Positions 53,955 to 64,000 of a stretch of 64,000 bases of DNA are shown one piece after another. The notes beneath the pieces are model-generated. The model searched no databases and was not told the origin of the DNA. It saw only the letters and a program-made list of their open reading frames with translations. Location of the stretch: the NCBI GenBank assembly GCA_017465885.1, contig JAFTVG010000029.1, forward strand, positions 41,541-105,540. Direction: 5' to 3'. Position 1 is the stretch's first letter. Each line of letters opens with the position of its first letter. The stretch is from Clostridia bacterium. Lineage in GTDB: Bacteria; Bacillota; Clostridia; Oscillospirales; CAG-272. A program made the position numbers and the translations under genes.

Positions 53955-54696
53955 TCATCCGATCAGAGATCTTTCCGAGCGTCAGTCCGGAGGCTAAAAA
54001 CTCGTTTTCCAAATAATTCTCAAAATCCGATCCGTAAAATATAGTGTCGATAGGTTGAGAAAAGGAAACGATGGGCATATGATCCATACCGTCAAAGAAG
54101 CACCGATGTCCGTAAAAGGGAATCAGACGGGGACTGCCGTTTAACTGATCCAATATAGCTCCGCGCAGCGAGTCGGTGTCGTAACAGCCTTTGGTAGTTT
54201 TGCGGAGCATCGCAGATAAGGTTTCGCCGTTATTATCAAGGTCAAACAGAAATGCATCGCGGATCCCTTTTTGAAAGTCTTGAAATGCCGCCAGATTTTT
54301 GGCTGATAAATCGTTGTACCGAAAGAATCTTGATCCCGTCGGATAGGCGTAGGATAGAAAGTCGGCTATTTCCTTTGGAAAACGAAAGCCGAAGGTGCGC
54401 TCAATCTCACGGATTTCGCTTGGAGTCAGTCCGTCCGTAAAGGGGACGCCTGATGCCTTGAGCCGTTCAACCATTCGCTCTATATCAAAGGAGGAAAAAT
54501 CAAACAGCTCGTCCATCGAAATATGAAAGAGCTGCGCGATCTGAGGGAGCATTTCCACATCGGGATAGCTCTCACCGTTTTCCCACTTGCTGACCGCAGC
54601 CTTGCTTACGCCAAGTATAGCGGCAAGCTCTTCTTGCGTAAACTCCCACTCCCTTCTTTTTGCTTTGATCTTCTCTCCGATTTTCAGATTTGACAT
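53920..54696 (-). CDS. XRE helix-turn-helix fused to a SUKH (SMI1/KNR4) domain
   Basis: 258 residues. Residues 1-66 form an HTH_3 domain (REWEFTQEELAAILGVSKAA, VSKWENGESYPDV). From about residue 85 a SUKH domain follows: GLTPSEIREIERTFGFRFPK, then AYPTGSRFFRYND and, near the end, PIVSFSQPIDTIFYG. SUKH domains usually serve as immunity proteins or adaptors; the fusion suggests a regulator that senses a partner protein. The HTH half is almost identical, also at DNA level, to that of the next gene. Start after GGAGG. Confidence 0.85.
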   Translation of the reverse strand: MSNLKIGEKIKAKRREWEFTQEELAAILGVSKAAVSKWENGESYPDVEMLPQIAQLFHISMDELFDFSSFDIERMVERLKASGVPFTDGLTPSEIREIERTFGFRFPKEIADFLSYAYPTGSRFFRYNDLSAKNLAAFQDFQKGIRDAFLFDLDNNGETLSAMLRKTTKGCYDTDSLRGAILDQLNGSPRLIPFYGHRCFFDGMDHMPIVSFSQPIDTIFYGSDFENYLENEFLASGLTLGKISDRMKDTGIWYYIVE

Positions 54697-54749
54697 AATA
54701 TGATTCCTCCGAAAGAGTAATTGTTATGCTTATGAAACCACTTGTGCAA

Positions 54750-55364
54750 TTAAAATGCGTCTTCTTTTCCGATCAAGCCCATATCCAACTGTTCATTGAT
54801 CATTGTGCGTATATATTTTTGATCTTTAATATTGTAGTTCCAGACTTTTTCTCGACAAACAAAGTGTTTATTCGGTTTGTTGTCGATGATGGCTTTACCA
54901 TCGGCAATTCGTACACTTACACCATCCATCACAACGCCGGGGTGAATGTATTTTTGAATGATATAAGGAAAATCCTCTTCTCTTGAGATTACTTGAACAC
55001 GGACTTCCCATAAATTCTCAAACTTGTCTTCAGCATAATGACCGCAATTACAAACCTCGCATTTTTTAACAATGCAGTGATCCAGAATTCTACGATTAAT
55101 ATTGTCAAGTGAAAATCCGAAGCAGTATTCAGTAACGATTTCAATCGGCTTATATTCCAAGGTGTATTCAAACAGTTCGTCCATCGACATATGAAAGAGC
55201 TGCGCGATCTGAGGGAGCATTTCCATGTCGGGATAGCTCTCACCGTTTTCCCACTTGCTGACCGCAGCCTTGCTTACGCCAAGTATAGCGGCAAGCTCTT
55301 CTTGCGTAAACTCCCGCTCCCTTCTTTTGGCCTTGATCTTCTCTCCGATTTTCAGATTTGACAT
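54750..55364 (-). CDS. XRE helix-turn-helix regulator with unknown C-terminal domain
   Basis: 204 residues. The first 66 residues differ from those of the adjacent 53920 product at only a few positions, while the rest (from EYTLEYKPIEIVTEYCFGFS) is unrelated, a C-terminal domain with a CEVCNCGH cysteine cluster that may bind metal. It is divergent from cas3, sharing the 55365-55596 control region, so a role in cas3 regulation is possible. Start after GGAGGG. Confidence 0.82.
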   Translation of the reverse strand: MSNLKIGEKIKAKRREREFTQEELAAILGVSKAAVSKWENGESYPDMEMLPQIAQLFHMSMDELFEYTLEYKPIEIVTEYCFGFSLDNINRRILDHCIVKKCEVCNCGHYAEDKFENLWEVRVQVISREEDFPYIIQKYIHPGVVMDGVSVRIADGKAIIDNKPNKHFVCREKVWNYNIKDQKYIRTMINEQLDMGLIGKEDAF

Positions 55365-55404
55365 ATCAACACCCTCCCGAACTGACTTTCTTTAAACCGA
55401 TTAC

Positions 55405-55433
55405 AGTATACCATATCCCTGCAAAAATGTAAA
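55405..55433 (-). promoter_or_regulatory. Promoter of the 54750 XRE gene
   Basis: On the minus strand TTTACA (55433-55428), 17 nt, TATACT (55410-55405); a GGTTAACAGTG element lies 12 nt upstream. Confidence 0.78.
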
Positions 55434-55521
55434 GCGAATGTTACTAAACACTGTTAACCGTTAGTTGATTATTGAAAAAGCACGCTTGAATATAATGCAT
55501 AACGAAAATTCTGAAAAACAG

Positions 55522-55550
55522 TTGCAAATCGACGTAAAAAAGTGTAAACT
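55522..55550 (+). promoter_or_regulatory. Putative promoter of cas3
   Basis: TTGCAA (55522-55527), 17 nt, TAAACT (55545-55550). An alternative TATAAT at 55491-55496 has no well-spaced -35 box. Confidence 0.55.
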
Positions 55551-55596
55551 ATACGTAGTTGTGTACCGTTGCACAGAACATACAGGAGAAAAGCGT

Positions 55597-57723
55597 ATGA
55601 AGGAATACATTGCCCACAAAACTGAAAACGAAGTTCAAACCGTTAAGGAGCATCTGGAAGGCACCGCAAACCTGAGCGCGTCCTTTGCCGCCGCCTTCGG
55701 TGCGGAGGAGCTTGGAAGACTGTGCGGGTTGGCTCATGACATCGGCAAATATTCGGAGGGCTTTCAGCGGCGTATTATGGAGGATGGCCCCAAGGTAGAC
55801 CACGCTTCGGCAGGCGCAATCGAATGCTGCCAGCGCAAACAAGACATTGCCGCCATGTGCGTGATGGGGCATCACGGCGGGCTTATGAACCTGGGTGGCA
55901 GGGATGATCTGGAGGATGCCGATAGCTTTTGCGGTAGAATGAATCGGTATAAAGGATCAAAAAGATATGCTTATGATGCGTGGAAGCAGGAGGTAAAGCT
56001 TCCGTCTGTTGACGCCCCCTCTGTGGAGTGGAAGCACTGGGTGTTTTATACCCGTATGCTCTATTCCTGCCTTGTGGATGCGGACTTTCTGGATACGGCT
56101 GCTTTTATGGGAGAAAAACGGGATCACGTCGTTGCAAAGTGGAACGAGCTAAACCACCGCTTGGATGAATATACTTGCGGATGGTATCCACCCAAGGGAG
56201 AACTCAATCGCATTCGTTGCGCTATCCTTGACACCTGCAGGTCGCAGGGCGAGACGGGGGAGGGATCACTTTTTACTTTGACCGTTCCCACGGGTGGCGG
56301 CAAGACCGTCTCCTCTTTGGCATTCGCCCTACGTCATGCAAAAGCGGCAGGGAAGGACCGCGTCATCTACGTGATTCCCTACACCTCCATCATCGAGCAG
56401 ACCGCCGCCGAGTTTCGAAAGATTCTTGGGCAGGATGTCGTGCTGGAGCATCACAGCGGGATCGTCTACGATGACGGCGAGGGAGAAAATCCCGATGCAA
56501 GACAAAAACGAATGAAATACGCTTCCGAAAACTGGGACATGCCCGTGGTTGTAACTACTGCGGTACAGTTTTTTGAGTCACTGTACGATCATCGCCCTTC
56601 CGCTTGCCGCAAGCTTCACAACATTGCCAACAGCGTGGTGATCTTTGATGAGGCACAGATGCTCCCGCTCCCCTATCTGAAGCCATGTGTCTATGCGATC
56701 TCCGAACTGACAAGAGCATACAACGTGACTGCAATCCTCTGTACGGCAACCCAACCGGCGCTTGGCACATTATTTGAGAAGTATTTGAATGAAACGCCCC
56801 AGGAAATCTGCCCGCATCAGCTACGGGAGGATAAGATTTTCAAGCGTGTCACTTTCCATAGGAGCGGAAAGCTGACAAAGCATGAACTGGCCGAGGGCTT
56901 GAATCAACACCCGCAGGTTCTCTGCATCGTCAATTCCCGTGCCGCGGCTCAGGAGCTTTATGGGCTGCTGGACGAGGAAGGGCGGTACCATCTGTCTACC
57001 CTTATGCCACCGGCGGAGAGACAAGAGAAGCTGAAGAGCATTCGAGAGCGTCTTAAGCAGGGACTTACCTGCCGCGTGATTTCTACGTCTTTGATCGAGG
57101 CAGGAGTGGACGTGGACTTTCCTACGGTGTACCGCGAAATGGCAGGATTGGACTCCATCCTGCAGGCAGCAGGACGGTGCAACCGCAACGGAGAAAGACC
57201 GCGGGCGGAAAGCCACGTGCAGGTGTTCGAGTCGGAATGGAGGACCCCGCCTATATTGGATGTCGCGATCGGTGCATGTCAGTCGGTATGGGACGGAACG
57301 TCTGATCCATCGGAGGAGTCGATCATACACCACTACTTTGGAGAATATCTCTTTCTGAAGGGAGAAGAGGCGCAGGATGCCAAGTCCATCATGTCTATGA
57401 TGAGCAAGTGTACGTTACCTTTTAAGGATATTGCCCGTGCATTCAAATTGATCGATTCGGGGGCGGTTACGGTTTACGTTCCAACCGAGGAGTCCCGCTC
57501 TCTCATCGATCAGTACCGCAGCGGGATGATCGACCGTGCCTTGATGCGCAAGCTGGGACGATATGGCGTGACGGTATATCCAAACCGTCTGAAAGACTTG
57601 CTTAACGCAGGAGACGTGGAGAATCTGGGCGGCGAGGTGTACGTGCTGCTGAATGAACAGATGTATTGTGAGGAGACGGGGCTTTCTCTGAACGTTGAGC
57701 TTGGAAAAGCAATTATTTGCTAA
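55597..57723 (+). CDS. cas3: CRISPR-associated nuclease-helicase Cas3 (type I-C)
   Basis: 708 residues from the ATG at 55597, after ACAGGAGA. An N-terminal HD nuclease domain (GLAHDIGKYSEGFQ, then VDHASAGA and MGHHGGL) is followed by a superfamily 2 helicase: motif I VPTGGGKTVSSLAFAL, motif II VIFDEAQML, motif III CTATQP and motif VI QAAGRCNRNG. It degrades the non-target strand after the Cas5-8-7 complex binds a protospacer. It ends in a hairpin before cas5c, so it is probably a separate transcription unit, unlike in many I-C loci. Confidence 0.97.
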   Translation: MKEYIAHKTENEVQTVKEHLEGTANLSASFAAAFGAEELGRLCGLAHDIGKYSEGFQRRIMEDGPKVDHASAGAIECCQRKQDIAAMCVMGHHGGLMNLGGRDDLEDADSFCGRMNRYKGSKRYAYDAWKQEVKLPSVDAPSVEWKHWVFYTRMLYSCLVDADFLDTAAFMGEKRDHVVAKWNELNHRLDEYTCGWYPPKGELNRIRCAILDTCRSQGETGEGSLFTLTVPTGGGKTVSSLAFALRHAKAAGKDRVIYVIPYTSIIEQTAAEFRKILGQDVVLEHHSGIVYDDGEGENPDARQKRMKYASENWDMPVVVTTAVQFFESLYDHRPSACRKLHNIANSVVIFDEAQMLPLPYLKPCVYAISELTRAYNVTAILCTATQPALGTLFEKYLNETPQEICPHQLREDKIFKRVTFHRSGKLTKHELAEGLNQHPQVLCIVNSRAAAQELYGLLDEEGRYHLSTLMPPAERQEKLKSIRERLKQGLTCRVISTSLIEAGVDVDFPTVYREMAGLDSILQAAGRCNRNGERPRAESHVQVFESEWRTPPILDVAIGACQSVWDGTSDPSEESIIHHYFGEYLFLKGEEAQDAKSIMSMMSKCTLPFKDIARAFKLIDSGAVTVYVPTEESRSLIDQYRSGMIDRALMRKLGRYGVTVYPNRLKDLLNAGDVENLGGEVYVLLNEQMYCEETGLSLNVELGKAIIC

Positions 57724-57725
57724 TT

Positions 57726-57762
57726 AAGAGGAGCACCCCCGCAATGCGGAGGTGCTCTTCTT
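57726..57762. terminator. Long hairpin after cas3, also ending the antisense guide RNA
   Basis: Core arms GAGCACCCCCGC / GCGGAGGTGCTC with AAT loop, extendable by five further pairs outward. T-runs are weak on both strands, so it may instead act as the 3' hairpin of the minus-strand RNA. Confidence 0.65.
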
Positions 57763-57814
57763 GGTCAACAAATATCATATTACTATTTCAATCCACATTT
57801 GCCAAGCAAATGAC
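57731..57814 (-). ncRNA. Candidate cas-repressing crRNA-like RNA (CreR/CreA type)
   Basis: On the minus strand, 30 nt (57814-57785) form a solitary degenerate CRISPR repeat: GTC, a 6-bp stem ATTTGC-TTG-GCAAAT, then GTGGATTGAAAT, the exact 3' end of the array repeat. It is followed by about 27 nt of spacer-like sequence (from 57784) and a strong hairpin. Positions 1-16 of that spacer match the site at 57892-57907 except position 6, and TTC (57910-57908) precedes this site. Transcription would start at the first base of the repeat from the promoter at 57821-57849. Inference: the Cas5c-processed RNA directs the Cas complex to the cas5c control region. Confidence 0.8.
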
Positions 57815-57820
57815 GAAAGG

Positions 57821-57849
57821 ATTATACCATATACGCGCAAAAAAATCAA
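57821..57849 (-). promoter_or_regulatory. Promoter of the crRNA-like RNA
   Basis: On the minus strand TTGATT (57849-57844), 17 nt, TATAAT (57826-57821), then six nt to the G that opens the degenerate repeat. Confidence 0.82.
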
Positions 57850-57873
57850 TAGAAATTTTTTTAGACGTTATTT

Positions 57874-57910
57874 ACGATACTGATTCTTCGTCAAATATCA
57901 TTTTACTGAA
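57874..57910 (-). promoter_or_regulatory. Predicted target site of the crRNA-like RNA
   Basis: Minus-strand TTC (PAM) at 57910-57908 followed by AGTAAAATGATATTTG (57907-57892), matching the guide in 15 of 16 positions. Lies between the two divergent promoters, with the PAM 13 nt from the cas5c -35 box. Confidence 0.78.
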
Positions 57911-57923
57911 CAAAAAACAAGTA

Positions 57924-57952
57924 TTGACAAAGTGGTTGTAAAGTATTATAAT
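57924..57952 (+). promoter_or_regulatory. Promoter of the cas5c-cas8c-cas7c-cas4-cas1-cas2 operon
   Basis: TTGACA (57924-57929), 17 nt, TATAAT (57947-57952): consensus boxes, so strong unless repressed. Confidence 0.88.
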
Positions 57953-58001
57953 AAAATTACCGATTTGAAAATCGAAGAAATATGAAAGGAGTGATCCAAA
58001 T

Positions 58002-58664
58002 TTGTCTATCAAGTTAGAGGTTTGGGGCGATTACGCCTTGTTCACCCGTCCCGAAATGAAGACCGAGCGCGTTAGCTACGATGTTATGACCCCTTCCGCT
58101 GCAAGGGGAATACTGGAAGCCATCTTCTGGCATCCGGGACTCGTGTATAGGATCGATCGAATCTACGTATGCGCTCCGATCCGCTTTGCCAACATTCGGC
58201 GCAATGAGGTCAAGTCTACCGTTAGCGCACGGAGTGCCAAGCTTGTTATGGACAGTGGGCAAGGAGAACTGTACATCTCTACGTCGGATGATATTCAACA
58301 GCGAGCTGCTATGATTCTGCGAAACGTCCACTATGTTATTGAAGCCCACTTTGACATGACCGATAGAGCAGCGCCGAGCGACAACCCGGGAAAATTCTGC
58401 GATATCATCAGACGACGTGTGGAAAAAGGCGGTTTTTATCATCAGCCATATTTTGGGACCAGAGAGTTCCCTGTTTTCTTTGCTCCCTGCCATGAGATCC
58501 CGTCCTGTCCTGAAGAACTGAAGGGAAGGCGTGATCTGGGATATATGCTGTTTGATATGGATTACACGCATAGGGAGGACGTTCGTCCGCTCTTTTTCCG
58601 TGCAGTTCTGGAGAATGGCGTGTTGCGGGTTCCGTCCCGTGATTCGGGGGAGGTGATAGGATGA
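58002..58664 (+). CDS. cas5c: Type I-C Cas5c, pre-crRNA endonuclease
   Basis: 220 residues from a TTG at 58002, after AAAGGAG. Begins KLEVWGDYALFTRPEMKTER, the Cas5 RAMP fold; FDMTDRAAPSDNPGKFCDII and GGFYHQPYFGTREFP are typical of subtype C. In type I-C, which lacks Cas6, this protein cuts within the repeat and stays on the 5' handle of the crRNA. Overlaps cas8c by four nt. Confidence 0.96.
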   Translation: MSIKLEVWGDYALFTRPEMKTERVSYDVMTPSAARGILEAIFWHPGLVYRIDRIYVCAPIRFANIRRNEVKSTVSARSAKLVMDSGQGELYISTSDDIQQRAAMILRNVHYVIEAHFDMTDRAAPSDNPGKFCDIIRRRVEKGGFYHQPYFGTREFPVFFAPCHEIPSCPEELKGRRDLGYMLFDMDYTHREDVRPLFFRAVLENGVLRVPSRDSGEVIG

Positions 58665-60409
58665 TCCTGCAAGCATTGGTGGAATTTTATGAGAGTATGG
58701 CTGCGGGAGGTAAAATGCCGCCCTTTGGTTGGATGCAGGTGCCGATCTCTTATATCCTCGATATCGATCGGGAAGGAAATCTGATCCGGGCAATCCATAC
58801 TATAAGTGAGGTGAGAATTGGTAAAAAGATGGTTCTCAAGCCTGTATCCCGTATGTGTCCCGCACAAGTATCTCGTACTGTAGGCGTAAAGTCCAATTTT
58901 CTTTGCGACCATTCAGGGTATATGTTGGGGGTGGACAATAAAGGAAAGCCCAAACGCACGAAAGAATGCTTTGACTGTTGTCGAGAATTGCATCACACCA
59001 TTTTGGATGACGTTGACTCTTACGTAGCGCGGGCAATACTCGAATTTTTTGATCGATGGGAGCCTGAGATGACAAGGGATCATCCTGCATTGAAGGATAG
59101 ATTTGACGATGTGATCTCAGGTGTCAACCTGCTGTTCCGCTGTGACGGATGTCTTGCCTCGGAGGATCGTGCGATCAAGGAGGCGTGGGATCGGTATTAT
59201 GGAGGGAAAGGTGAGGATGAGGGCTATTGCTTGGTTACGGGCAAATACGGTGCGGTCGAGCGGACACATCCACAGATTCGTGGTTTTGTTGGCGCCCAAT
59301 CTTCAGGTGCAGCGTTGGTTTCTTTCAACGCTCCCGCATTTGCGTCTTACGGGAAAGAGCAGAATTTGAATGCTCCCACGGGGAAATATGCTTCGTTTGC
59401 TTATACCTCCGCAATCAATTATCTAATTAAAGATGCCGATCGCCACATTCGTGTCGGAGAGACAACGGTGCTTTTTTGGATGAACGGTGAAAATACGGCA
59501 GGAGAGCAACTTGTGGGCTTTATTTTCGATGATGACCCTCCAGCAAATTACACGAAGGATGAATTATGGGAAAAGATCAGGACGCTGTCCAAAGGCATCC
59601 CCGTGGAACTTGACGGAACGAGAGTAGACCCCGAACGACCCTTTTATATTTTGGGTCTATCTCCTAATGCAGCACGACTTTCGGTTCGTTTTTTCTATCA
59701 GAACTCTTTCGGTTCCTTTCTTAAAAATGTGTGTTCACATCAGGAGCGTTTGCGGATTGTCAGACCTTCTTATGATCTCTATGAGACGATCCCGATTTGG
59801 AAACTGCTTGATGAAACTGTAAACCAGAAGTCAAAGGATAAACTACCGTCACCGCATATGGCGGGAGATGTGCTACGGTCGATCTTGACCGACACCCCGT
59901 ATCCTGCGTCGCTTTTGAACGGAGTAAACCTGAGAATACGTGCCAATCGAGAAATTACACGCGGTCGCGCTGCGATCATTAAAGCCTATTATTTGAAAAA
60001 TGCACATCCCAATGTGCCAAAGGAGGTATTGACGATGTCCCTGAATCGGGATTCCAACAACGTTCCATATTGTCTTGGACGTTTGTTTGCAATTTTAGAA
60101 AAGCTTCAGAATGATGCAAACGGAGCATCTACTGTAAAGGATCACTATTTCGTTTCTGCTGCGGCGACCCCCGCGTCTATCTTCACTATCTTGCTCCGGC
60201 TGTCGAAAAGCCACTTGAAAAAGCTGAAGGGGTCGGATAAGGATTGGCTGGCACCTTATTATGAAAGAATGATCCGTGAGATCATGGACAAGTTCGGAGA
60301 AACGCTCCCTGCTCGTTTGACTCTTGCCGAGCAAGGCTCGTTTCAGTTAGGTTACTATCATCAAAATATTGCTTTGTATCAAAAGAAGGAGGATCAGGAA
60401 AATGTCTGA
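58661..60409 (+). CDS. cas8c: Type I-C large subunit Cas8c (Csd1)
   Basis: 582 residues, normal length for Csd1. Starts within the cas5c stop (ATGA). Typical features: [20 protein letters not shown] at the N terminus, [32 protein letters not shown] and [12 protein letters not shown] at the end. It recognises the PAM and, through an internally translated C-terminal piece in studied I-C systems, provides the small Cas11 subunit; a suitable internal start was not pinned here. Confidence 0.96.
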
Positions 60410-61295
60410 TATCATTAAGAATCGCTACGAGTTCGTTATTCTGTTCGATGTGGAGAACGGAAATCCCAACGGTGATCCCGATGCGGGAAATATGCCACGT
60501 GTAGATCCCGAGACCGGTCTGGGGATTGTGACGGACGTTTGTCTTAAGCGTAAGATCCGCAACTTTGTAGAGGCGGTTAAGGAGAATGAACCCGGCTACA
60601 AAATCTACATCAAAGAAAACGCGCCCTTGAACACAAGCGACAAGCAGGCATATCTGGCTCTGGGGGTGGACGAGAAGAAGGTCAAGGAAGCCAAAAGGAA
60701 CGATCCGGATTTGGACTTAAAGGTGCGTGATTGGATGTGTAAGAACTATTTTGACATACGTACCTTTGGTGCAGTTATGACCACCTTTGTGAAGGATGCT
60801 TTGAATTGCGGTCAGGTGCGCGGTCCCGTACAGTTTGGCTTTGCTCGTAGCGTTGAGCCGATCTCCCAGCAAGAGATGACCATCACTCGTGTTGCCATCA
60901 CAACTGAGGAGGATGCTGCCAATAAGAATACCGAAATGGGCCGCAAGTATATCGTCCCCTATGGTCTATACCGTTGCGAGGGCTTTGTTTCAGCCAATCT
61001 TGCGCGCAAGACCACGGGATTCTCTGAGGAGGATTTGGCTTTGCTCTGGCAGGCGATCATCAATATGTTCGAATTTGACAGATCTGCCGCGCGGGGTAAG
61101 ATGGCTGTCAGAGAACTGATCGTCTTCAAGCACGATAGCGAATTCGGCAATGCTCCTGCCCACAAGCTCTTCGATTTGGTCAAGGTTGCTCGCAAGAATG
61201 ACAACGGTCTGCCTGCTCGCGCCTACACCGATTACGAGGTCAGCGTGAACGAGGATGCGCTCCCCTCCGGCGTGACCTGTACCCGAATGATCTGA
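60402..61295 (+). CDS. cas7c: Type I-C backbone subunit Cas7c (Csd2)
   Basis: 297 residues from the ATG at 60402, after AAGGAGG inside the end of cas8c. Forms the helical backbone on the crRNA. Signatures: [40 protein letters not shown] and [16 protein letters not shown]. Overlaps both neighbours slightly, indicating tight translational coupling. Confidence 0.97.
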
Positions 61296-62005
61296 TGGAA
61301 TACAGGGAAGAGGAGTGGCTCCAGCTTTCGGGGCTTCAGCATTTTTCCTTTTGCCGCAGACAATGGGCTTTGATCCACGTTGAACAACTCTGGGCGGAAA
61401 ATTTGCGCACGGTGGAGGGGAATCTCCTCCACCAAAAGGCGCACGACAGCACCGATCGGGAAAGTCGCGGAGATTTGTATATACTGCGAGGTGTCAATAT
61501 CCAATCCCGTGAGTTGGGTGTTTCGGGGCAGTGTGACGTGATTGAATTTCACCGTTGTCAGGAAGGAGTTCCACTACAAGCAAAGGAAGGTTTGTGGCAG
61601 CCCTATCCGGTGGAATACAAGCGAGGTCATTCCAAGGAAAACGATGCCGACCGCCTCCAGCTTTGCGGACAGGCTATGTGTCTTGAGGAAATGCTGTCCT
61701 GCGAGATCAAGCGCGGTGCTTTGTTCTACGGAGAGACCCGCCGGCGCGAGGAGGTGATCTTCACTGCCGAGCTGCGTAGCCGGGTGCGGGAATGTCTTTC
61801 GGAAATGCACGATTATCTCAAGCGCGGCCGTACGCCTCGGGTTAAGCCCTTTAAAGGGTGTAACGCCTGTTCTATGGCTGAATATTGCCTGCCCGGGATG
61901 CTCAGGAAAAGGCGGGTAGGTGATTATCTGGACAGATTTATGGAGGAAGCCATAAGGGAAGGTGAAGATGTCGGATCAATCAAAGAAGGGAGAGGGGACG
62001 AATGA
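61295..62005 (+). CDS. cas4: CRISPR-associated exonuclease Cas4
   Basis: 236 residues, one-base overlap with cas7c (TGATG). RecB-like nuclease: LQHFSFCRRQWALIHVEQ at the N terminus with the first cysteine, QCDVIEF and PVEYKRGH with the catalytic Asp and Lys, and the C-terminal cluster CNACSMAEYC for an iron-sulphur centre. Trims prespacers and helps choose PAM-adjacent ones with Cas1-Cas2. Confidence 0.97.
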   Translation: MEYREEEWLQLSGLQHFSFCRRQWALIHVEQLWAENLRTVEGNLLHQKAHDSTDRESRGDLYILRGVNIQSRELGVSGQCDVIEFHRCQEGVPLQAKEGLWQPYPVEYKRGHSKENDADRLQLCGQAMCLEEMLSCEIKRGALFYGETRRREEVIFTAELRSRVRECLSEMHDYLKRGRTPRVKPFKGCNACSMAEYCLPGMLRKRRVGDYLDRFMEEAIREGEDVGSIKEGRGDE

Positions 62006-63033
62006 AGCAACTGTTGAATACTCTGTTCGTAACCAGCGAGGACGTCTATCTGGCGTTGGACGGAGAGAATGTAGTAGCTAAGCGTGGCGATGATATTGTG
62101 GCACGCTATCCCTTGCATACTTTGCAGGAGATCATCACTTTTTCCTATGCAGGAGCCTCTCCTGCCTTGATGGGTGCTTGCGCGGATAAAAGGATCGGAC
62201 TGGCGTTTTGCACCCCTCGTGGCAGATTTCTGGCGCGTGTAAGCGGAGAGAACAACGGGAACGTGTTGCTCCGCCGCAAGCAATACCGGGAAGCAGACGA
62301 CGACCGATCGTCCTGTCTTGTTGCGCGCAATATGATCTTCGGAAAGTTATATAACTCAGCTCACAGTATCGCTCGAACCTGCAGAGACAACGGAATGCGC
62401 GTGGATGTCTGTACCCTACGGAACGCCGAAAACATCCTGAAGGACCTTTACCCTAAAGTCCGTGACTGTACGGATACTGAGACGTTGCGCGGTCTGGAGG
62501 GAGTGGGAGCTACGGCATATTTCGGTGTGCTGGATCATATGATCCTGGGGCAAAAGGACGCTTTTTCTTTCAACCAACGCAGCCGCCGTCCGCCACTCGA
62601 CCCCGTCAACGCTATGCTGTCCTTTGCCTACAGCCTTTTGGCTCACGATTGCGCGTCGGCATTGGAGAGCGTCGGTCTGGACGCCTACGTTGGTTTCCTG
62701 CACAAGGACAGACCGGGCAGAAGCTCGCTTGCATTGGATCTTATGGAGGAGTTGCGACCGTGTATGGCAGACCGATTCGTGTTGACCCTTATCAACAATC
62801 GAGTTTTGTCCGAAAAGAGTTTTGAGTATCAGGAATCAGGAGCGGTTCTATTGACAGATGCAGGCAGAAAAACGTTTCTGAAGCAGTGGCAGGAGCGAAA
62901 AAAGGAGAAAATTACCCATCCTTATCTTGAAGAAAAGATGGCTTGGGGGATGATCCCATATGCTCAGGCACTCCTGCTTGCCCGATACCTACGAGGGGAT
63001 CTGGACGAATACCCACCGTTTTTGTGGAAGTGA
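62002..63033 (+). CDS. cas1: CRISPR integrase Cas1
   Basis: 343 residues, ATGA overlap with cas4. Landmarks: LFVTSEDVYLALDGENVVAK at the start, the acidic active-site region RGLEGVGATAYFGVL, the His/Asp block HKDRPGRSSLALDLMEELRP. Together with Cas2 inserts new spacers at the leader end of the array. Confidence 0.97.
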   Translation: MKQLLNTLFVTSEDVYLALDGENVVAKRGDDIVARYPLHTLQEIITFSYAGASPALMGACADKRIGLAFCTPRGRFLARVSGENNGNVLLRRKQYREADDDRSSCLVARNMIFGKLYNSAHSIARTCRDNGMRVDVCTLRNAENILKDLYPKVRDCTDTETLRGLEGVGATAYFGVLDHMILGQKDAFSFNQRSRRPPLDPVNAMLSFAYSLLAHDCASALESVGLDAYVGFLHKDRPGRSSLALDLMEELRPCMADRFVLTLINNRVLSEKSFEYQESGAVLLTDAGRKTFLKQWQERKKEKITHPYLEEKMAWGMIPYAQALLLARYLRGDLDEYPPFLWK

Positions 63034-63042
63034 GGATGAATG

Positions 63043-63333
63043 ATGCTGGTACTCATAACATATGACGTCAACACCGAAACACCGCAAGGAAAAAAACGTC
63101 TGCGGCAGATCGCCAAGCAGTGTGTGAATTACGGTCAGCGCGTGCAGAATTCAGTTTTTGAATGTAAGCTGGACGCCGCACAGTGCCGTCTCCTGCAAGC
63201 TAAATTGGTATCCCTGATGGATGAGGAGACCGACAGCCTACGGTTTTATTATCTCGGAAATAAATACGAGAACAAGATCGAGCATTTTGGTTGCAAGGAG
63301 ACCTATCTGCCTGATGACCCTATGATCATTTAG
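63043..63333 (+). CDS. cas2: CRISPR-associated Cas2
   Basis: 96 residues; ATG at 63043 is seven nt after GAGG, and an in-frame ATG at 63040 is possible. MLVLITYDVNTETPQGKKRL and YGQRVQNSVFECKLD match the type I-C form. Structural dimer at the centre of the Cas1-Cas2 integrase. Last gene of the operon. Confidence 0.96.
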   Translation: MLVLITYDVNTETPQGKKRLRQIAKQCVNYGQRVQNSVFECKLDAAQCRLLQAKLVSLMDEETDSLRFYYLGNKYENKIEHFGCKETYLPDDPMII

Positions 63334-63503
63334 TTTTATTCGTGTGCGAAGCCATAGTGTACAGAGATCTATGGGAGGTTCGCGCGCCAAATACACAGTT
63401 GTTTCGATAAAAAATTCCGAAACGAAGGAGTTTTTTAAACGAAATGTGTGAAAAATGTGTTATATACACAAAACGAAAACCCACTTTTTTGTGAGTTTTT
63501 GCT
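63334..63503 (+). promoter_or_regulatory. CRISPR leader
   Basis: 170 AT-rich nt between cas2 and the first repeat with ACGAAATGTGTGAAAAATGT and repeated TTTTTGTGAGTTTTT-like tracts. Expected to hold the array promoter and the integration signal; a TTAAAC...TATATA pair near 63434-63466 may be the promoter but is not certain. Confidence 0.7.
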
Positions 63504-64000
63504 GTCACCCCCCCTCGCGGGGGGTGTGGATTGAAATCGATCCTGTCAATGCAAGCACGCCCAACGTGGAAGTCACCCCCCCTCGCGGGGGGTGTGGATT
63601 GAAATACTTGCAAAAAATGTTGTTTGGGGAAGCAGCCCGGTCACCCCCCCTCGCGGGGGGTGTGGATTGAAATTTGGTCGTTGAAGGTGCACGCCACCCT
63701 TGAAGAGTCACCCCCCCTCGCGGGGGGTGTGGATTGAAATCTCGGGATCAACAACATTCTCGCCGAAAAGAAGGAACGTCACCCCCCCTCGCGGGGGGTG
63801 TGGATTGAAATTACGTATTTTATCAACGTCAACCCCGTCGCTTTGACGTCACCCCCCCTCGCGGGGGGTGTGGATTGAAATCCGTCCTACGCTAAAAAGT
63901 GTGGTATTTATCATGTCCCCCCCCCTCGCGGGGGGTGTGGATTGAAATACCGATCGCCTCCTCCAGCTCCTTGAGCTCAGGCGTCACCCCCCTCGCGGGG
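63504..64000 (+). CRISPR. Type I-C CRISPR array, continues past the window end
   Basis: 34-nt repeats, GTC-ACCCCCC-CTCGC-GGGGGGT-GTGGATTGAAAT, start at 63504, 63572, 63640, 63707, 63778, 63848 and 63915; an eighth begins at 63983 and is cut off. Spacers are 34, 34, 33, 37, 36, 33 and 34 nt, all different. Repeat 7 has C for A at position 4; repeat 8 has one C fewer in its C-run. Leader-proximal repeats are identical. No spacer matches elsewhere in the window by eye. Confidence 0.98.

Follow-up and report, generated by a model that had tools for sequence, protein, structure and literature searches.

Why should the minus strand of the cas3-cas5c gap hold a single CRISPR repeat that stands alone and leads into a guide resembling the promoter region of its own cas operon? 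The question is raised by the window analyzed here, a 64,000-nucleotide stretch from a contig of a Clostridia bacterium (assembly GCA_017465885.1, contig JAFTVG010000029.1), which harbors a type I-C locus with the complete expected cas gene set (Table 1). The original prediction, made from the letters of the window, described a cas5c-cas2 operon and, opposite to it, a crRNA-like RNA acting as its built-in autorepressor. The operon stands, in the order cas5c-cas8c-cas7-cas4-cas1-cas2, as judged by matches to TIGR families. As for the RNA, we consider it very probable that the element is a single-repeat CreR-type autorepressor of cas5c-cas2 that works through the I-C Cascade. The window also carries a 198-nt direct repeat, 96% identical between its copies (54500-54697 and 55168-55365), which spans the N-terminal helix-turn-helix parts of two adjacent regulator genes.

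Table 1. Features of the type I-C locus and of the solitary RNA element in the window
Feature	Position	Strand	Remarks
cas3	55465..57723	+	Listed ORF; likelier start is ATG at 55597; upstream of, and convergent with, the solitary RNA
Terminator-like hairpin	57731..57757	-	12 pairs; expected to terminate the RNA; not followed by a second repeat
Guide as far as the terminator stem	57758..57784	-	Match in positions 1-16 (57784-57769)
Degenerate I-C repeat GTCATTTGCTTGGCAAATGTGGATTGAAAT	57785..57814	-	Hairpin CATTTGC-TTG-GCAAATG, then handle GTGGATTGAAAT
Predicted promoter of the solitary RNA	57821..57849	-	TTGATT-17-TATAAT; 10/12 consensus letters plus TG
Target (protospacer-like) of the guide	57892..57907	-	15/16 paired; position 6 mismatched
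PAM TTC adjoining the target	57908..57910	-	TTC or TTT described as PAM for a type I-C system (PMC10865793)
Predicted cas5c-cas2 promoter	57924..57952	+	TTGACA-17-TATAAT; 12/12 consensus
cas5c (Cas5d)	58002..58664	+	TIGR01876, 172 bits; expected repeat-processing subunit
cas8c/csd1	58661..60409	+	TIGR01863
cas7/csd2	60369..61295	+	TIGR02589
cas4	61295..62005	+	TIGR00372
cas1c	62002..63033	+	TIGR03640
cas2	63040..63333	+	TIGR01573
CRISPR array	63504..64000	+	At least 7 complete repeats plus a partial eighth; runs into the contig end

Read 5' to 3' on the minus strand, the element consists of a predicted promoter, one degenerate I-C repeat, a guide (AGTAATATGATATTTGTTGACCAAGAA), a 12-pair hairpin, and the tail CTCTTAATTA, all located between the end of cas3 at 57723 and the start of cas5c at 58002. 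Both the minus-strand promoter (57849-57821) and the repeat ending like that of the array (57814-57785) were found where they had been proposed. The repeat is 30 nt long, and its last 12 letters are identical to those of the array repeat GTCACCCCCCCTCGCGGGGGGTGTGGATTGAAAT; its arms differ from the array repeat yet stay complementary over 7 pairs (CATTTGC/GCAAATG). In the 1.9-Mb assembly, which is approximately 81% complete, the handle occurs eight times, seven in the array and one in the solitary element, and a reversed control pattern gave 0 copies. A CRISPR array has at least two repeats with spacers between them; here, a single repeat is followed by a terminator-like hairpin. A search of Rfam with the region 54000-64000 returned no match at gathering scores. 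When the 91-nt RNA was folded in isolation, the lowest-energy structure paired the guide with a repeat arm and the repeat hairpin was not formed; this hairpin would be favored only if folding during transcription or Cas5c binding helps.

Type I effectors leave each sixth guide base flipped out, and positions 1 to 5, 7 to 11, and 13 to 16 (14 letters) were counted as read. The match of the guide to 57907-57892 in 15 of 16 positions, with its sole mismatch at position 6 and a TTC beside it, was found exactly as originally proposed; alignment of guide and target likewise confirmed the sparse matching past position 16, where only 19, 20, 23, and 24 agree, and the distance of 13 nt from the TTC (57910-57908, minus strand) to the cas5c -35 box. 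Position 17 is unpaired in the window, compared with paired in 21 of the 24 element-bearing loci described below. Since the target lies next to the -35 box without covering it, occlusion would depend on the footprint of the complex. Downstream of the predicted cas5c promoter, a 5' region of approximately 43 nt (start site estimated) and a Shine-Dalgarno (SD) sequence precede the TTG start at 58002; promoters, here and in relatives, are consensus matches only. The match is also specific to this place. When the stretch from the guide to cas5c was dinucleotide-shuffled 20,000 times, no TTC-adjoining site matched at all 14 read positions, and 3 shuffles gave 13. Within the same assembly, the read pattern AGTAANATGATNTTTG has exactly two copies, the guide and the target. 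Allowing one mismatch added two further sites, which adjoin ATC and CGG, not TTC or TTT, and the reversed control gave one.

The arrangement recurs in relatives. We compared 92 cas5c loci, namely the window, the best 80 of 161 loci from named genomes, and 11 of 25 further matches, and scanned 600 nt upstream of cas5c (less than 250 nt in two loci) for a TTGAAA-type handle with a guide and a target adjoining TTC or TTT. The scan gave 22 loci at 13 to 14 of the 14 read positions; one of them, L042, was a false pairing, so that 21 were kept, and three were added, L011 (after strand correction), L042 (with its true pairing), and L044 at 12/14. The element is present in 24 of the 92 loci, that is, in the window and 23 of the 91 others, and all 24 guides are different over positions 1 to 17. 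One bearer is a cultured strain, Butyricicoccus pullicaecorum DSM 23266 (L039). Applied to shuffled stretches, the same 600-nt scan scored 1 in 1,840. Among 27 repeat-handle candidates examined against their own region, 19 had a TTC target at 12/14 or better and 4 had a TTT target (L044, L062, L063, and L102), while no matching target was found for L057, the second candidate in L065, L076, and L096 (4/27). When guides were set against foreign regions as a cross-locus control, only 3 of 700 reached at least 12/14, against the 19 of 27 on their own region. A search that ignored the handle, with low-complexity guides dropped and at most four pairs per locus, listed 22 pairs at 14/14, of which 18 were preceded by a handle; the other four were three mirror images of handle-led pairs and one hairpin in L037.

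The other 68 loci had no guide-target pair in the scanned 600 nt. One is L034, the closest relative among the 92 (cas5c 81% identical), whose intergenic region contained neither a pair nor a repeat handle. On a Cas5c tree, the element label (25 loci, L091 included) needs 22 changes, and shuffled labels need 22.1 on average; bearers of the element are dispersed over the tree, and one ancient gain is not supported. L091 came from a scan of the 92 whole loci: its element (13/14, TTC) lies approximately 2,360 nt upstream of cas5c, ahead of cas3, and its cas3-cas5c gap is only 17 nt. With the element ahead of cas3 and the two genes this close, the element seems to track the operon promoter. In a phylum-wide sample, 108 of 398 genomes had a cas5c match, and 30 loci of these were scanned with flanks of at most 1.5 kb per side, so that a promoter ahead of cas3 would escape detection; of 50 plasmid records with a cas5c match, five (Nitratidesulfovibrio, Zymomonas, Treponema, Brevibacillus, and Thermus) were scanned as well. 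A pair was present in 3 of these 35 (L118, L126, and L135; CTC and TCC PAMs also allowed) and in none of the five plasmids; like that of the 92 whole loci, these are counts uncontrolled by shuffling. Viral contigs, searched for exact copies of the end of the solitary repeat joined to its guide, gave 0 matches.

Across the 24 loci, guide and target agree at positions 1 to 5 and 7 to 11 in 23 to 24 loci and at positions 13 to 17 in 21 to 24. Agreement falls to 9 loci at position 6, 8 at position 12, and 12 at position 18, then to 2 at position 19 and a background of 3 to 7 at positions 20 to 34. Positions 6, 12, and 17 to 34 had no role in selecting these loci. We also observed that agreement at position 19 lies below the level of positions 20 to 34, as if longer pairing were avoided. 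The PAM is TTC in 19 loci and TTT in 5. Targets lie on the minus strand in 16 loci and on the plus strand in 8, so that the arrangement is not a simple tandem duplication.

An orthologous group of five loci (Cas5c 86 to 90% identical) has a recognizable common guide. Its guides show 18 differences at read positions (position 17 counted as read), and the target has the same change in 15; of 13 differences at positions 6 and 12, only 1 is mirrored in the target. These counts refer to pairs of loci and hence not to independent events. By its own terms, the original prediction would fail if guide and target drifted independently in related genomes; the relatives show the opposite, with targets following their own guides at read positions and drifting at 6, 12, and 18 (24/92 loci). 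Guide and target appear to have been kept together in evolution, the mark by which we would recognize such a regulator. In addition, these natural guides indicate which letters Cascade probably reads (1 to 5, 7 to 11, and 13 to 17) and where the match ends. The anatomy, the specificity of the match, and this covariation are direct observations on the DNA.

The same pattern bears on two other readings. The two similar stretches might be operators of a protein repressor, with the repeat handle nearby by coincidence; guide and target do form a 16-nt near-repeat in one orientation in the window, and direct operators exist elsewhere. Nevertheless, the similarity in the 24 loci begins at the handle end and at the PAM, breaks down at positions 6 and 12, ends at 17 to 18, and differs in sequence from locus to locus, and the two stretches are on opposite strands in 8 of the 24, leaving this explanation next to no chance. 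Alternatively, the element could be a nonfunctional leftover of a CRISPR array whose spacer was self-matching, which would agree with its single degenerate repeat and with the absence of a pair from the scanned stretch in 68 of 92 loci. Such a remnant is extremely unlikely given that guide-target covariation is maintained, that hairpin pairing is retained despite changed letters, and that the element has its own predicted promoter and terminator.

The surroundings of the guide are also similar across loci. In 22 of the 24, the highest-scoring minus-strand -10-like box has its end 26 to 38 nt upstream of the guide, immediately before the repeat. Further, a stem of 10 to 21 pairs with at most one mismatch starts at guide positions 17 to 32 in all 24 (an uncontrolled count); a T run (at least 4 T in the 8 letters after the stem) follows in 9, and the stem itself absorbed T in several others. 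A repeat stem of at least 4 pairs was found in 19 of the 24 solitary repeats, compared with 428 of 1,200 shuffles, and the hairpin seems to be retained in the solitary repeats, a view that these counts support but not strongly by themselves. In each of the 17 loci with a readable array repeat (1 to 8 copies), the solitary repeat folds more weakly than the array repeat; array crRNAs may therefore outcompete the solitary RNA, and the latter would then act as a sensor of free Cascade.

The target lies 1 to 18 nt upstream of the best predicted cas5c -35 box in 18 of 24 loci, and in the remaining six (L045, L100, L105, L107, L113, and L013) it lies across or downstream of the promoter with the best prediction. 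What this promoter drives matters for a third reading, in which the guide would silence a gene for a small toxic RNA transcribed from 57924-57952, as in CreTA, and cas regulation is a by-product. CreTA is known in haloarchaeal and I-F systems (PMC9458426 and PMC10097628), and SD-led short ORFs do lie between target and cas5c in L037, L038, L045, and L013 (32, 82, 29, and 35 codons, respectively). In the window, however, the promoter leads through the short 5' region and its SD sequence directly to cas5c, and no short ORF led by an SD sequence intervenes between the target and that gene; in all, 18 of the 24 loci lack such an ORF, and the candidates in L042 and L044 (17 and 10 codons, respectively) all have non-ATG starts. 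We therefore regard a CreTA module in the window as very unlikely. The ORFs of L038 and L045 start alike (M-x-x-L-x-x-x-K-A-x-P-V-x-G), and the four SD-led ORFs are possibly I-C CreT toxins or leader peptides.

The autorepressor reading of the solitary RNA is supported by the 24 of 92 loci with distinct guides and targets that follow their own guide. The same arrangement in 23 of 91 other loci, each with its own guide letters, suggests that it is likely a built-in dimmer for defense genes when they are not needed. Transcription, Cas5c processing, loading, repression, and its relief by crRNAs or anti-CRISPRs are steps whose course we infer, by analogy, as follows. The RNA would start at approximately 57814 and end at the hairpin at 57757-57731. 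The cut by Cas5c would fall below the hairpin of the repeat and leave the usual handle on the RNA, with the terminator hairpin substituting for a second repeat. Cascade would then bind 57910-57892 through approximately 15 read pairs, a match probably too short for destruction by Cas3, and, lying against the -35 box, would keep RNA polymerase off. Plentiful Cascade would thereby shut down the operon in a negative feedback, and cas expression should rise when array crRNAs occupy Cascade or an anti-CRISPR blocks it, a prediction that applies to any blocking of I-C Cascade. Published parts of such a circuit include promoter repression by I-C Cascade without Cas3, with TTC or TTT accepted, and a one-repeat, one-spacer array whose knockdown is similar to that of repeat-spacer-repeat (PMC10865793). 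In I-F1, shortened R-loops are described as leaving interference off (PMC7296934). More tentatively, and with somewhat less than even confidence, we propose that I-C loci of Bacillota hold a natural one-repeat CRISPRi circuit that reads approximately 15 letters of the cas promoter and senses free Cascade (crRNA abundance and anti-CRISPRs), that guide and target re-evolve together in nearly all lineages, and that a short ORF captured in a few relatives has turned the circuit into an I-C toxin-antitoxin guard.

The closest known counterpart is CreR, a crRNA-like RNA with a partial match to its own cas promoter that autorepresses cas genes and whose effect is lifted by abundant crRNAs or by anti-CRISPRs (PMC13131331 and PMC12737573). 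PMC13131331 names subtypes I-B, I-E, and V-A, and the review PMC12737573 speaks of type I and V-A generally. The RNA of the window is also crRNA-like and partially matches the promoter of its cas operon, and its degenerate repeat, of the same subtype as the locus, lies within the cas locus but not in the array. It differs in belonging to I-C, where Cas5, not Cas6, trims the repeat (PMC10013973), and in its short read match of approximately 15 pairs; its one repeat, with a terminator hairpin in place of the second, may be a further difference. Among the papers listed by our literature search, none described an I-C CreR. Shmakov 2023 reportedly predicted such elements widely and may include I-C. 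The CreR-like principle is known, and a single-repeat autorepressor in I-C may be, as it appears from the literature surveyed, an unreported case of it.

The CreA RNA of CreTA shares the degenerate repeat and the partial match beside a PAM, with an I-F example unpaired at bases 6, 11, and 18 (PMC10097628), and CreA has one or, mostly, two repeats (PMC9458426). In the window, the controlled promoter leads to cas5c and not to a small toxin, and a search for coding candidates in the stretch where a toxin gene would lie found no SD-led short ORF. Racr RNA anti-CRISPRs and solitary repeat units of phages also have a single repeat directly after a promoter, with an I-C example known (PMC10651486). 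These are virus or plasmid borne and come without cas genes, whereas the window element sits in a host cas locus, between cas3 and cas5c, with a guide that matches a promoter. Finally, engineered type I-C CRISPRi uses one repeat, one spacer, a TTC or TTT PAM, and a promoter block by Cascade (PMC10865793); it lacks Cas3, whereas the element described here is natural, has Cas3 present, and carries a shortened match.
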